Source: Salibacteraceae bacterium (GTDB taxonomy: Bacteria > Bacteroidota > Bacteroidia > Flavobacteriales_G > Salibacteraceae). Taken from it: a DNA stretch of 40,645 bases. The notes under the pieces were generated by a model that saw only the letters and a program-made list of their open reading frames with translations, made no database searches and had not been told where the DNA came from. Positions within the stretch are counted from its first letter, which is position 1. The number at the start of each line of letters is the position of its first letter. Positions 30,607-35,867 of the stretch are shown one piece after another. The stretch lies in assembly GCA_030727625.1 (NCBI GenBank), contig JANRBI010000221.1:23837-64481 (forward strand). The letters run 5' to 3'. The position numbers and the translations under genes were made by a program.

Positions 30607-30629
30607 AACTAATTGGATATAAAAGTGAA

Positions 30630-30662
30630 AGTCCTGACAACATTGTTGTCAGGGCTTTTTTT
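30630..30662 (+). terminator. Rho-independent terminator
   Basis: gtcctgacaacattgttgtcagggcttttttt. Confidence 0.88.
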
Positions 30663-30708
30663 ATTGCAAATTTTTATGATGGGGTTTTCCTTTTAACTGA
30701 TTTCGGTA

Positions 30709-32091
30709 TTATGCCACAGTTCTCAATTCAGCATACAGTTTTTGTGCCTTTTCTAAAAGTTTCGGATCAAAATCAGAAACATTGTTTCTTCTATTTTTAA
30801 AAGGTTCAGCAGTATAAAAAGGCGCTGATATGTCAAGTTTTTCGAACACTGTGCCTATTGCTTTTCTTGGATTTTGACAGTATTCTTCATAGCAGATATA
30901 TATGGTGTTCTTATGTTTCGCACTCAAGGCATATTCATAATAATTGATCCAAATGTGAAGCCAATATTCAATGCTGTTTTTTGAACAGGACGATAATTCA
31001 TCACTATTTCCAAAATCAAAACGAATATGGTTTAAACCAAATTCATGATGTCCAAGCCAATTCATATAGTCTAGCACAAACGGATCTTTTGTTTGCAATT
31101 TTGAGAAGGATAAATGCTTGTCAAGCAAAGAAGAGGCATGTGTGAGTGGATCTCTAAACATGATGATCATCACAAACGATGAATTGATCTTTCTGATCGC
31201 ATCATACCGAAGTAAGAAGTTGTTATTTTTTGCCAGATAGGTGTGTGATGAATGCTTCCGAACCACATTTTGATAGTCTAAATAGTCATGATATTCTTCC
31301 TCTGAAAGCTCATGAATCATTAGTTTGTTTTCATGAACGAACCGATTGTTGGTGATTATTTTGAAAAAGTACTCTTCTAATGCCTCGTTAGAATTAAGAC
31401 CTATTTCTATTCCATCTTTATGGCTGCGCTCTTTGGTCTTATTGTTTTTGGGCTGGTAGATTTTACTCCAAAGATTTGGTGCCATTAGAAGCGGCATATT
31501 TGCGTAGCTGAGCGTTGCAAATATTTCCAAAGTTGCCAGCTTAATTATGAGGCTTGTAGTTCCAGCTCTGGCCAAACCAGAAACGATTACAAATTGTTCG
31601 GCATCGTGATCGGGTAGTGTTGAGTATCGTTTCCGTTCAAATTGAAATAGCTTTTTACCTATTTCGACATTGTCTAGAACCAAATGATGCAGCAGCTGCT
31701 GAAGTTCTGAATACGAAGTCGTTTTACTTTTCTTAGTAGGAATAATAAACGGAAGCGTAGCGCCTATAGAAACGGACAAAATTCCATACAGTGATTGAAT
31801 GGATACTTCCTCATAAATTTCAATGCTTGCAGCATATAGAAATACCATAGGAATGCTTGCAAGAACAATTGCGAGAGCGAATAATGCAATGGTTGTTAAA
31901 AGTGCACTGAACAGCTTTTTTGTGGCATGCTCTACATTTTTAATGTGCGCATCCTCATCTGTTTGAATAAGCATTGCGTTTAGAAGCGCTACACTTTTTA
32001 TAGCCAAATGATGCAGTGTTTTTCGGCCTAGTTTGATGGTGAATGCTAGAACAAACGCGGCAACTGCAAAGCTTAAATATCCAATAATCAT
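30709..32091 (-). CDS. Membrane-anchored sulfotransferase-family protein
   Basis: Several N-terminal TM segments (to about residue 115), then 5'-PSB-like loop VIVSGLARAGTTSLI and 3'-PB-like MIIMFRDPLTHASSLLDKH. Confidence 0.78.
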   Translation of the reverse strand: MIIGYLSFAVAAFVLAFTIKLGRKTLHHLAIKSVALLNAMLIQTDEDAHIKNVEHATKKLFSALLTTIALFALAIVLASIPMVFLYAASIEIYEEVSIQSLYGILSVSIGATLPFIIPTKKSKTTSYSELQQLLHHLVLDNVEIGKKLFQFERKRYSTLPDHDAEQFVIVSGLARAGTTSLIIKLATLEIFATLSYANMPLLMAPNLWSKIYQPKNNKTKERSHKDGIEIGLNSNEALEEYFFKIITNNRFVHENKLMIHELSEEEYHDYLDYQNVVRKHSSHTYLAKNNNFLLRYDAIRKINSSFVMIIMFRDPLTHASSLLDKHLSFSKLQTKDPFVLDYMNWLGHHEFGLNHIRFDFGNSDELSSCSKNSIEYWLHIWINYYEYALSAKHKNTIYICYEEYCQNPRKAIGTVFEKLDISAPFYTAEPFKNRRNNVSDFDPKLLEKAQKLYAELRTVA

Positions 32092-32231
32092 TTGTCTTTT
32101 TTCCTAAAAAAGCGTCTCAATTTTAGCCAAATAATATAGCCGAAAGAAAAAAGCACAATAGCGCTAATGATGAAAATGAGGATGATGGTTCCTAGTCCAA
32201 GACCCGGTCCTATGTAAAGTAAACACGCCAT
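32088..32231 (-). CDS. Uncharacterised 47-aa single-TM microprotein (MACLLYIGPGLGLGTIILIFIISAIVLFSFGYIIWLKLRRFFRKKDK)
   Basis: Read by hand; below ORF-track cutoff. ATG shares one base with the upstream stop (TAATG) and its stop overlaps the next start (ATGA). Confidence 0.75.
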   Translation of the reverse strand: MACLLYIGPGLGLGTIILIFIISAIVLFSFGYIIWLKLRRFFRKKDK

Positions 32232-33493
32232 TATTTTTTAATGATTCTAGTCCAGTTAGGTAAATGATGATAACCCGGATATTGAGATTTAAGAACGTTT
32301 TTATAAACCACTTCATCCTCCTTAATCACCCAGAGTTTGCCTGAATTTTGTTCTTCAACAAAGTACATGTCAGGTCTAATAAATTCTACCAAACCTTCAG
32401 AATAGGTGAAGATTTGGTTCGCTCTAAAAATTGAATCTCCAATAACTGAAAAGGATTTCGTTTCAAAGTTGTAAACGACAATGTTTGATGTAAAGTCGCC
32501 ATAGTATTTACCAGGTTGAATATCAGGTGAATCAAATTCGTCAAAGCTTAATCCTTCGTAAACATTGTTATTAAAGATCATAAGCGAGTGGTCACCATAA
32601 AAATCAACATCGTGTTGGCTGATAAAAGGTCCTTCTAAGAGTTTGATGAGTTCATTTGTTTCGGGTCTGTAGTGCAGTATGATCGATGGATTTTTTAGAC
32701 TAATAAATACATCACCTTTTTGATAGAAAGCTGTTGTTTCAAGCGCTGGTTGCACATCATTCATATGCAGCGGATCGTCCATATTCATTGATTTCATGAT
32801 GTAGTTGCTCAAGTTGTTTTCAAACAATAGTTCACCCATTGATTTATGAAAAAGTAGTTCACCGGTATGAATATCTATTTTACTGATAAAATTATCCTTG
32901 AAAACACGCTTGTGTCCATCTACAGTGTATCCTCCAATATTCAAGTTGCTTTTATCAAATGAGCAAACCCAAATATTTGTGTCAGCATCAACATTAATGG
33001 CGTGATGTGCTTCTATTGCATCTTGCTTCCAAATCACGTTTCCAGCACTGTCTATCCGCTGTAATCCTTTTCCATCAAAGGAATAGATAAGATCTCTATT
33101 TGGTAATAAATAAGGATTAAGAATGCGATCAGTAGGCGAATACGGATTTGGAACACTCCAAGAATGAAGTGTTTCGTCCGTTTTCAAATCCATGAGCGCT
33201 ATGGTTCGAGTGTCATTCTTATCAGAAAAGGTGGTAAGTACCAGTATCGAGCTGCCAAGATTATTGATGCTATTAAATGCCTTTGCTGTTTCTATAAAAG
33301 TTTCTGGCAGTGTTTGAACCTCTTTCACCGATTGCTTGAAAAGGTTTGGAAACGATGTCATCCATTTTACAGGTTCATCCAAAAGGCCAAAACTTCGAGT
33401 GTTTTTTGAAATTTCCACAGACATCCAACCGAAAATAGTAAGGAAGAAAAGCGATATAACGAGAATAGAAAAACCCTGTACGACTGATTTCAT
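32231..33493 (-). CDS. Arylsulfotransferase (ASST)-like beta-propeller protein, N-terminally membrane anchored
   Basis: N-terminal TM; AHHAINVDADTNIWV, GPFISQHDVDFYGDHSLMIFNNN; ATG 33493 preferred over TTG 33523. Confidence 0.65.
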   Translation of the reverse strand: MKSVVQGFSILVISLFFLTIFGWMSVEISKNTRSFGLLDEPVKWMTSFPNLFKQSVKEVQTLPETFIETAKAFNSINNLGSSILVLTTFSDKNDTRTIALMDLKTDETLHSWSVPNPYSPTDRILNPYLLPNRDLIYSFDGKGLQRIDSAGNVIWKQDAIEAHHAINVDADTNIWVCSFDKSNLNIGGYTVDGHKRVFKDNFISKIDIHTGELLFHKSMGELLFENNLSNYIMKSMNMDDPLHMNDVQPALETTAFYQKGDVFISLKNPSIILHYRPETNELIKLLEGPFISQHDVDFYGDHSLMIFNNNVYEGLSFDEFDSPDIQPGKYYGDFTSNIVVYNFETKSFSVIGDSIFRANQIFTYSEGLVEFIRPDMYFVEEQNSGKLWVIKEDEVVYKNVLKSQYPGYHHLPNWTRIIKK

Positions 33494-33548
33494 GGAAATG
33501 CCAGATTTTACAAAAAGGTGCAAATTAAAATTAAAAATCTTGGCACCT

Positions 33549-35867
33549 CTATTTCAATGCTGGCTCATTGAACAAAATGTATCCAAAATGGAAAAGGAAA
33601 GTCAATGGCGTACGGTCATCAACACTAATTTCTGGCACATTGTAATAGTAATTTAAGCCAATGCTCACTGGACCAAGTGGGCTTCTATAAACCGCATTTG
33701 CTGTGGCAATGGTGTAGCGTCTTTCGGCACTGTAAACATTTTCGGGTCCAAGTCCTTCGTCATTCCTGTTTCTTGCAAATCTGTAAGGTTGAAAAACGTA
33801 GCCTTCAAATCTCAGATCGATATTCTTATAGACATTGAAAATCACTTTTTGGCCAATAGCAGCATATTGATAAGCTCTAAAAGATTCTAAAAAAAGCGTG
33901 GTGCTTTCTGGAGTAGGCTTAAAGGCTGGCGACCGAAGTGAGCTTGCTGTATAGTTAGTGAATAGCTCCAAATCTGAATAAACTGCCTCAGCATAAAAGC
34001 CAAGTCTCAGTGTTCCGTTTGATTTATAATACACATCATAACTGCCTTTAATATTTACCCATTGGTGCAATTTGCGCAAGGTGCGCTCCTCGCTCGATGT
34101 TGTGCCTGGAAGGTAGGTTTCGTCTCCAGAAGTAAGTTGGGCAATAATTTTAAGCGCGCTTCCGGCATTTGGATAAAGCTTTGCGTTAAGACTATTTTTT
34201 TCGAATTGAGCATAAGCTGTACTTCCTAAGAAAGTAGTTTTATCTGCAATATCGTCTTGCCCAAATTGGCTTGTTTGGTAATAATCATCACGAAGCGAGA
34301 GAAAACCACAGCCTAGCGTAAACTTGGTTTTGTTGGAAAGTGCAAAAGCTCCGTTGAGATATGCGTATTGCTCATTTTGTATTAAGAACAACGAATTGTT
34401 TTGTTCAAAGAATGTGGCTCGGCTTCGGAAGTAATTCCATCGATTAATCGCAAAAACAGGTTCTATGTAAAAAGGGAATTTTACTGGAATGTCAAGTCTT
34501 GCTTTTGCTAAAACAGAAGTATAGAGCTTTCCGAAATAGGTATTAGCATGAAAGCTTGTTCCTGTTTTGTTCAAGGCATTATAAGTCAATCCAACATATC
34601 CTGTGTTTATTGGTCGCGAAGAAATATTTCCACCAAAGTCTAGAATTAAATTCTTCTCTTTTTTCACCAAGAGTTTCAGTATGTATGTGCTGTCTGATTT
34701 TATGGTAGAATAGGGGAAAAGCCGCTCTATTTTATCATTTTCATAAACTCTGTAATACCGCTTTTCTGCTTGGTTAAAGCTCAAATTCTTCTTTCGCTTA
34801 CTTGGCTTTAAAATCAAGTTTACGTAGCTACTTTGTGCTTTTGTCAATCCAGAATATTCAAATTCAGAAAACTTCAGTGGCGTTTTCTTTGCGTTAAATT
34901 CATTTCGTTGTTCTTGAATCACTTTCGAATGAACCCGTCTGTGTATTTTTTCTTTGATGCTCGGCATTTGGCGCATTGCAGCCACATAACCAGAATCTAT
35001 GCTTTCTTCTAAATGACTAAAATTAAAAGTTCCAAAACCAACTTCAGGTTCTATTAAAACGCAGCTATCACCCAATAACTCATAATTGGTTTTACTCACC
35101 ACCATGTTGCGCAATTGAGATAGAAAATCATCTTCGCGTGGTGGATCTTCGTTGCTCGATACATTGCTTCCGATAATCACCTCCGGAGCAAATTCATCAC
35201 GCATTACATCTGTCGGAAAGTTGTTGTAAAGGCCACCATCAAAGAGCAATTTACCGTCTTGAGTCAATGGTTTCAGGTAAAGCGGATAGCTCATGCTGGC
35301 TCTCACGGCAAAATTCAAATTGCCATCTTTAAACAAGATCGATTTTTTGTCTTCAATGTCTGAAGCCACGCATCTAAAGGGAATAAAAAGACTGTCAAAA
35401 TTGTATCCACTTGCAGCGCTTGCAGGATCTAAAGCGCGCATTAATTCCAAATCCAGCGCTGCAGGATTAATAAAACTGGTAGGAATCGAGCTTTGTAATA
35501 AGTTCGAATCTGAGTTTAGTTTTATACTTATCCAACTGGCGCTATTTGCTGGTTTTCTGAAAAAGTAAACGAACTTATCTTCGATTTCGCCTTGAGCGAT
35601 TTGTTTGAATTTCTCGCTCGTGAGCATTGCCTCAATCTGATTGGGAGAATAGCCTGCAGCGTACATTCCGCCAACCAAAGCACCGATAGATGAACCGGTA
35701 ATAAAATCTATAGGAATGCTATTTTCTTCCAATGCTTTTAGGACACCGATATGCGCCATTCCACTTGCTCCACCACCGCTCAAAACCACGCCAACACTTT
35801 GACCAACAACGTGTTGGAAGGCGAAGATTGTGGTAAGAATGAAAATGGATGCAATCCGCGTTAGCAT
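33549..35867 (-). CDS. Patatin-like phospholipase fused to outer-membrane beta-barrel (Omp85-like) domain
   Basis: VVLSGGGASGMAHIGVLKAL oxyanion motif, GSSIG nucleophile elbow, DGGLYNNFP; C-terminal barrel-like repeats; signal peptide. Confidence 0.9.
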   Translation of the reverse strand: MLTRIASIFILTTIFAFQHVVGQSVGVVLSGGGASGMAHIGVLKALEENSIPIDFITGSSIGALVGGMYAAGYSPNQIEAMLTSEKFKQIAQGEIEDKFVYFFRKPANSASWISIKLNSDSNLLQSSIPTSFINPAALDLELMRALDPASAASGYNFDSLFIPFRCVASDIEDKKSILFKDGNLNFAVRASMSYPLYLKPLTQDGKLLFDGGLYNNFPTDVMRDEFAPEVIIGSNVSSNEDPPREDDFLSQLRNMVVSKTNYELLGDSCVLIEPEVGFGTFNFSHLEESIDSGYVAAMRQMPSIKEKIHRRVHSKVIQEQRNEFNAKKTPLKFSEFEYSGLTKAQSSYVNLILKPSKRKKNLSFNQAEKRYYRVYENDKIERLFPYSTIKSDSTYILKLLVKKEKNLILDFGGNISSRPINTGYVGLTYNALNKTGTSFHANTYFGKLYTSVLAKARLDIPVKFPFYIEPVFAINRWNYFRSRATFFEQNNSLFLIQNEQYAYLNGAFALSNKTKFTLGCGFLSLRDDYYQTSQFGQDDIADKTTFLGSTAYAQFEKNSLNAKLYPNAGSALKIIAQLTSGDETYLPGTTSSEERTLRKLHQWVNIKGSYDVYYKSNGTLRLGFYAEAVYSDLELFTNYTASSLRSPAFKPTPESTTLFLESFRAYQYAAIGQKVIFNVYKNIDLRFEGYVFQPYRFARNRNDEGLGPENVYSAERRYTIATANAVYRSPLGPVSIGLNYYYNVPEISVDDRTPLTFLFHFGYILFNEPALK

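Follow-up and report, generated by a model that had tools for sequence, protein, structure and literature searches.

The closest described parallel to the locus considered here comes from the biosynthesis of caprazamycin, where a PAPS enzyme, Cpz8, first loads sulfate onto a phenolic carrier, from which Cpz4 transfers it to the final product (PMC4257720). Reported ASSTs use aryl sulfates and not PAPS, with one putative exception, and AssT is encoded with DsbL/DsbI (PMC13426309). The window, by which we mean the whole stretch of 40,645 nucleotides that was analysed, carries a cassette of three minus-strand ORFs in which a microprotein gene is placed between an ASST and a PAPS-type sulfotransferase. 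The trio is a real unit, and the reading that we favour, and hold to be a probable one, is that it forms a transmembrane sulfuryl relay in which the microprotein would serve as an adaptor.

The cassette and its three proteins

That the three ORFs are chained by overlapping starts and stops had been proposed by the sequence-only reading, and both overlaps were borne out (Table 1): the last base of the ASST stop TAA (32233-32231) is the first base of the microprotein ATG, and the sulfotransferase ATG (32091-32089) is overlapped by the microprotein stop TGA (32090-32088). The products are of 420 aa (ASST, with the ATG at 33493 as start; a longer form listed by the ORF tool begins with TTG at 33523), 47 aa and 460 aa. 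The junction between microprotein and sulfotransferase fell between -4 and +17 nt in 75/75 separate-gene loci measured, with -1 nt in 23 loci and -4 nt in 19, and because it is narrow in all 75, with a microprotein-ASST fusion in nine more, the arrangement is not attributable to chance. Between the sulfotransferase and the DUF3467 gene, an inverted repeat read by eye at 30633-30653 (CCTGACAAC...GTTGTCAGG) is possibly a shared terminator.

Table 1. Positions in the window of the cassette, its proteins and their conserved elements
Feature	Coordinates	Strand	Basis
Inserted interval; flanking DUF3467-like and patatin genes adjoin in congeners	30607..33548	.	congener comparison
ASST-type beta propeller, PF14269 Arylsulfotran_2, one N-terminal TM anchor, propeller predicted periplasmic	32231..33493	-	Pfam, AF2, Foldseek, hydropathy
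ASST His163-His164, counterpart of AssT His252 region	33002..33007	-	invariant 61/61; hhalign column match
ASST H243-x-N245, counterpart of AssT His356/Asn358	32759..32767	-	invariant 61/61; alignments
ASST Lys267, counterpart of AssT Arg374	32693..32695	-	R in 47, K in 14 of 61 homologues
ASST Q293-H294-D295; H294 counterpart of AssT His436	32609..32617	-	invariant 61/61; alignments
TAATG stop/start overlap, ASST to microprotein	32229..32233	-	sequence
Single-TM microprotein, 47 aa, motif Y-[IV]-G-P-[GS] at predicted periplasmic end, cationic cytoplasmic tail	32088..32231	-	alignment of homologues
ATGA start/stop overlap, microprotein to sulfotransferase	32088..32091	-	sequence
Membrane-anchored PAPS-type sulfotransferase, whole protein	30709..32091	-	Pfam, AF2, Foldseek
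N-terminal three-TM domain, residues 1-117	31741..32091	-	hydropathy peaks, acidic loop 2
Catalytic sulfotransferase domain, residues 125-460, predicted cytosolic	30712..31719	-	short alphaproteobacterial homologues; R313/S321
5'-phosphosulfate-binding (5'-PSB) loop GLARAGTTS, residues 172-180	31552..31578	-	G172, R175, G177, T178 invariant 61/61

The ASST-like propeller of the sequence-only reading was confirmed by a match to PF14269 (E 1.6e-30) and by an AF2 model (pLDDT 91.8, pTM 0.83) with the beta-propeller fold, for which Foldseek searches of the PDB returned Cpz4 (9kf6) as the best match (E 1.1e-11) and also the E. coli AssT structures (E 6.6e-8); the TM-scores, here and for the sulfotransferase model, were moderate, at about 0.3-0.6. 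A search of PDB sequences with the ASST profile gave matches to unrelated propellers only. The catalytic residues were located by alignment, with the E. coli AssT numbering anchored via L104 aligned to 3ELQ and the H436N mutant 4P04, the latter marking the position of His436, which in AssT is transiently sulfated. A single PF05935 sequence compared with the ASST profile by hhalign produced no significant or useful alignment; a profile alignment, for which the PF05935 side consisted of ten sequences from PF05935 loci, had a probability of 99.1% and paired H163/H164, H243-x-N245, S265-x-K267 and Q293-H294 with residues of PF05935-type ASSTs. The window ASST thereby has counterparts of the whole AssT catalytic set, all of them invariant in the 61 homologues except for the R/K alternation at 267, and the catalytic histidine expected at the outset is found as H294, in the His436 column. 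A hydropathy peak at residues about 4-22, with a mean N-terminal charge of +1.95, predicts one N-terminal TM, a positive N-terminus and a propeller on the outside. In the fused form a basic linker lies between two TMs, which would place the propeller and the N-end of the microprotein on the same side of the membrane.

The PAPS-type sulfotransferase claimed for the last gene was likewise upheld, by a model (pLDDT 91.4, pTM 0.88) whose matches in the PDB were headed by STF1 and continued with other sulfotransferases, including tyrosylprotein sulfotransferases. The window copy matches PF13469 weakly (4.1e-5, below the gathering score), and homologues pass its cut-off (1.6e-10 and 5.9e-14). In addition to the fold and the 5'-PSB loop of PAPS-dependent sulfotransferases, the protein has a pair of residues like those that bind the 3'-phosphate, R313 and S321, both invariant among the homologues; E221, H224, D226, E236 and E240 are invariant residues of the family. 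The several N-terminal TM helices that had been claimed appear as three hydropathy peaks, which begin at residues 1, 60 and 99. Since loop 2 is acidic (-1.4) and the segment past the third TM is strongly basic (mean +6.4; only +1 in the window copy), the catalytic domain is predicted to be cytosolic. Short alphaproteobacterial sulfotransferases align from model position 125/126.

The microprotein had no Pfam or NCBIfam match above cut-off, and the YIGPG family finds no mention in this sense in the literature searched; the cassette brings an unannotated microprotein family to light. Its tyrosine is present in 76/76 distinct homologues and the full motif in 75/76. The N-end is predicted to be outside because the N-side has a charge near zero, the C-tail has a mean net charge of +5.7, and relatives in Alphaproteobacteria have signal peptides (L154, L156-L160), with an AxA site directly before Y[IV]GPG in six. 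A related microprotein (L094:1498-1653) has YIDPGSGS in place of YIGPG and adjoins a gene that, from its sequence, we take to encode a SAM-dependent methyltransferase, a context which suggests that Y-x-x-P-G single-TM microproteins also serve other membrane enzymes. On a Sphingomonas plasmid (L162:4995-5204), a YMGPGAG microprotein with a signal peptide was found; the 10 kb examined there contained neither an annotated ASST nor an annotated sulfotransferase.

Linkage, rearrangement and history of the cassette

A scan of GTDB contigs with the sulfotransferase alignment turned up 234 related loci; the linkage counts apply to the 80 most similar of these, and more distant ones may differ. Among the 80, the microprotein was directly upstream of the sulfotransferase, or fused to the ASST there, in every case, and the ASST adjoined in 74. 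Of the six genomes without an adjacent ASST, five had a strong homologue at another place (E 1e-113 or better). In the remaining one (L020) there was only a short C-terminal remnant of the ASST, interrupted by an in-frame stop; its position (1047-1136) agrees with the segment immediately upstream of the microprotein gene. In three of the six, a CotH-kinase-type gene lay upstream instead of the ASST (two confirmed by Pfam). The CotH-type secreted kinase genes at L084:2515-3909 and L088:3-1226 are directly upstream of microprotein and sulfotransferase, with the ASST homologue elsewhere. The fusions, in nine loci, join the microprotein to the ASST N-terminus in the order YIGPGGG-TM-basic linker-TM-propeller.

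The sequence-only reading had hinged on both folds being found and on the trio being kept together in related genomes. Both folds are present, and the neighbourhood comparison found the trio in fixed order across many Bacteroidota, with its components recurring in Alphaproteobacteria; when species genomes were searched with the sulfotransferase as query, further families also proved to have the trio. Of the 396 genomes in the class, seven had a member of the ASST subfamily (E below 1e-60), and six of these seven also had the sulfotransferase. G398 has two ASST copies and no sulfotransferase was detected in it, from which it is clear that the ASST can exist alone; a weak sulfotransferase match in G086 (E 4e-4) seems to be an ordinary PAPS enzyme in a different setting. 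At L085:8224-9198, the membrane-anchored enzyme is followed by another sulfotransferase, of the ordinary PF13469 kind (E 1.5e-24), and the neighbour cluster to which this second enzyme belongs was also seen near several cassettes of the Owenweeksia/Cryomorphaceae type.

Seven plasmids of Alphaproteobacteria carry a homologous sulfotransferase near a PF14269 protein. In five, the N-terminal domain is missing from the sulfotransferase, and a small hydrophobic protein is encoded by its own gene alongside, that of SC52 alone matching the TM-domain model significantly and the others being assigned by position and hydrophobicity. The hydrophobic protein h2 of L155 matches positions 6-115 of that model (E 5.6e-5), and the N-terminal domain is apparently a separate gene in several Alphaproteobacteria. 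Two plasmids have the gene order microprotein, sulfotransferase, ASST, and in SC52 the microprotein is elsewhere on the same plasmid, near a gene for a bifunctional sulfate adenylyltransferase/APS kinase. Parts of one complex would be expected to behave in this way, being shuffled, split and fused, yet kept together.

The cassette was absent from all twelve congeners searched. Nine congeners have the DUF3467-like, patatin and BtuF-like genes in the same order without it (eight with rpoC too), and in eight of the nine the DUF3467 and patatin genes are within about 160 bases of each other. In both the ASST and the sulfotransferase trees, the nearest cassettes were from Bacteroidales MAGs and not from the family-mate L002. 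The two trees were correlated (Pearson r 0.85; 0/1000 label permutations as high), a test that shows common ancestry of the two genes and not function. Together these observations would fit the acquisition of the cassette as a unit, with loss in the congeners as the alternative. The patatin-domain protein at 33549-35867, common to congeners and outside the cassette, ends in a long C-terminal region, perhaps an outer-membrane barrel; PADLOC matched this protein only, and a defence-system reading was rejected.

The proposed relay and its alternatives

Pairing at one membrane of a PAPS enzyme predicted to be cytosolic with a Cpz4-like enzyme predicted to be periplasmic makes a carrier-mediated relay the most economical reading. 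In such a relay the anchored sulfotransferase, whose catalytic domain would lie in the cytosol, would transfer the sulfuryl group of PAPS to the aromatic hydroxyl of a carrier that resides in the membrane, a lipid of phenolic or quinol-like kind. The charged carrier would cross or span the membrane, and the anchored periplasmic propeller would take the group onto H294 and hand it on to an acceptor outside the cytoplasm, most probably a glycan that is lipid-linked or at the surface. The single-TM microprotein, its Tyr-Ile-Gly-Pro-Gly end outside and its cationic tail inside, would be the adaptor keeping both enzymes together in a single complex. While catalysis, carrier, flipping, acceptor and adaptor role are what we infer, the reading is supported in this analysis by the folds, the conserved catalytic residues, the genetic linkage, the predicted topology and the capacity for PAPS synthesis, and it is strengthened by the Cpz8-to-Cpz4 precedent and by the presence of APS kinase in every cassette genome tested.

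PAPS could be supplied in this genome by CysD-, CysN- and CysC-type genes that are on one contig with a CysQ-like gene; CysC was confirmed by PF01583, and the other names are those we presume from family knowledge of the translated sequences. APS kinase was found in 30/30 cassette genomes and in 186/396 genomes of the class, counts that are not phylogenetically independent and, with the enzyme also in congeners without the cassette, speak of capacity and not of specific linkage. A type III PKS carrier as in Cpz was considered and does not hold generally: the family is in only 8/30 cassette genomes, this one included, and such a carrier is therefore not required. No recurrent cluster resembling type III PKS carrier synthesis emerged when cassette neighbours were compared across Bacteroidota loci, nor did a carrier-synthesis gene, flippase or acceptor pathway travel along with these cassettes; for the carrier we would suggest a quinol or some different aromatic lipid of the membrane. 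A fixed wider gene cluster naming the acceptor was sought around the cassettes and not found, the neighbours varying by clade. On plasmid pSC52_6, the genes for PAPS synthase, ASST, the TM protein, the sulfotransferase and the microprotein lie among those for O-antigen ligase and glycosyltransferases, with GDP-mannose genes too, and the plasmid looks like one for a sulfated surface polysaccharide; with the glycosyltransferase neighbours at several other loci, which are not constant, it suggests a glycan acceptor. Several sulfotransferases, two PF14269 proteins, an MBOAT protein and a HAD-IIIC phosphatase are also encoded there (L163; CP049034.1 12000-60660).

The known ASSTs act on exogenous aryl sulfates, pNPS and MUS among them, and for most the natural donor is not known (PMC13426309), a background against which the cassette could encode two parallel enzymes and no relay, the sulfotransferase making a final sulfated membrane lipid and the ASST drawing on environmental aryl sulfates to modify either this molecule or a different one at the surface. 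In L003, L004, L079 and G398, additional ASST copies occur with no second sulfotransferase, which accords with this arrangement, but the arrangement is made unlikely by the near-obligate co-occurrence of the two genes, their short or overlapping junctions, the fusion, and the retention of an ASST elsewhere when it is not adjacent. The propeller might also be no sulfuryl transferase here, and act as a sulfohydrolase, an editing factor or a substrate-binding scaffold for the sulfotransferase; its likeness to the PF05935 enzymes is remote, as the single-sequence comparison attests, and PF14269 enzymes are little studied in the literature searched. Against this, the full catalytic set is invariant or conservatively replaced in the 61 homologues and falls in the right columns of the profile alignment, and we judge such a role distinctly improbable.

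Another candidate for the phenolic sulfuryl carrier, or for a dedicated acceptor, is the invariant periplasmic tyrosine of the microprotein, which, if reversibly O-sulfated and in exchange with the ASST histidine, would make a protein-only, phosphorelay-like relay and not a lipid-carrier pathway. Its constancy, its place as the predicted first mature residue of six alphaproteobacterial forms, the likeness of the sulfotransferase fold to tyrosylprotein sulfotransferases among others, and the acceptance of tyrosine-containing peptides by ASSTs (PMC13426309) are all in keeping with such a part. The PAPS domain is, however, predicted to be on the cytosolic side and the tyrosine on the periplasmic side, and Y-x-x-P-G microproteins without nearby sulfation genes (L094, L162) favour a structural role; as carrier, as acceptor or in a protein-only relay, we give the tyrosine very little credence. 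Bacterial genes are commonly at short intergenic distances, and mere co-transcription without functional connection might be argued on that ground, but it would hardly account for a trio kept across phyla in differing gene orders, fused, cleanly inserted as a unit and with correlated trees, and it seems to us highly implausible.

Comparison with known systems

The cassette is a variant of the two-step sulfation principle of Cpz8/Cpz4, in a form not described in the literature searched. As in that Streptomyces system, a PAPS-dependent sulfotransferase is genetically linked to a PAPS-independent ASST, and Cpz4 is the solved structure nearest to the window ASST. In contrast to Cpz8/Cpz4, both enzymes of the cassette are membrane-anchored, the microprotein is always present, and there is no linked antibiotic cluster or dedicated polyketide synthase, the type III PKS that is the source of the Cpz carrier not being general to the cassette genomes; the cassette is also spread over Bacteroidota and Alphaproteobacteria. 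With AssT of E. coli CFT073 (PF05935; 3ELQ, 3ETS) the window ASST shares the propeller fold and the catalytic residues, H252, H356, N358, R374 and H436 corresponding to H163/H164, H243, N245, K267 and H294, but it belongs to another Pfam family (PF14269), is TM-anchored, and is partnered by a sulfotransferase and a microprotein. The mycobacterial STF-type enzymes (STF1, 2ZQ5) and the tyrosylprotein sulfotransferases have the fold and 5'-PSB loop of the window sulfotransferase, which differs from them in its three-TM N-terminal domain, its own invariant residues and an identity of ~10-15%. A relay of this kind would let cells whose PAPS is produced in the cytosol add sulfate to surface molecules beyond the membrane. 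The coupling of an ASST to a PAPS sulfotransferase of its own, in a widely distributed cassette, suggests that the cell itself produces the donor, at the membrane, and opens this idea to a direct genetic test; if the relay is true, it would point to where the long-studied ASST class gets its sulfate.
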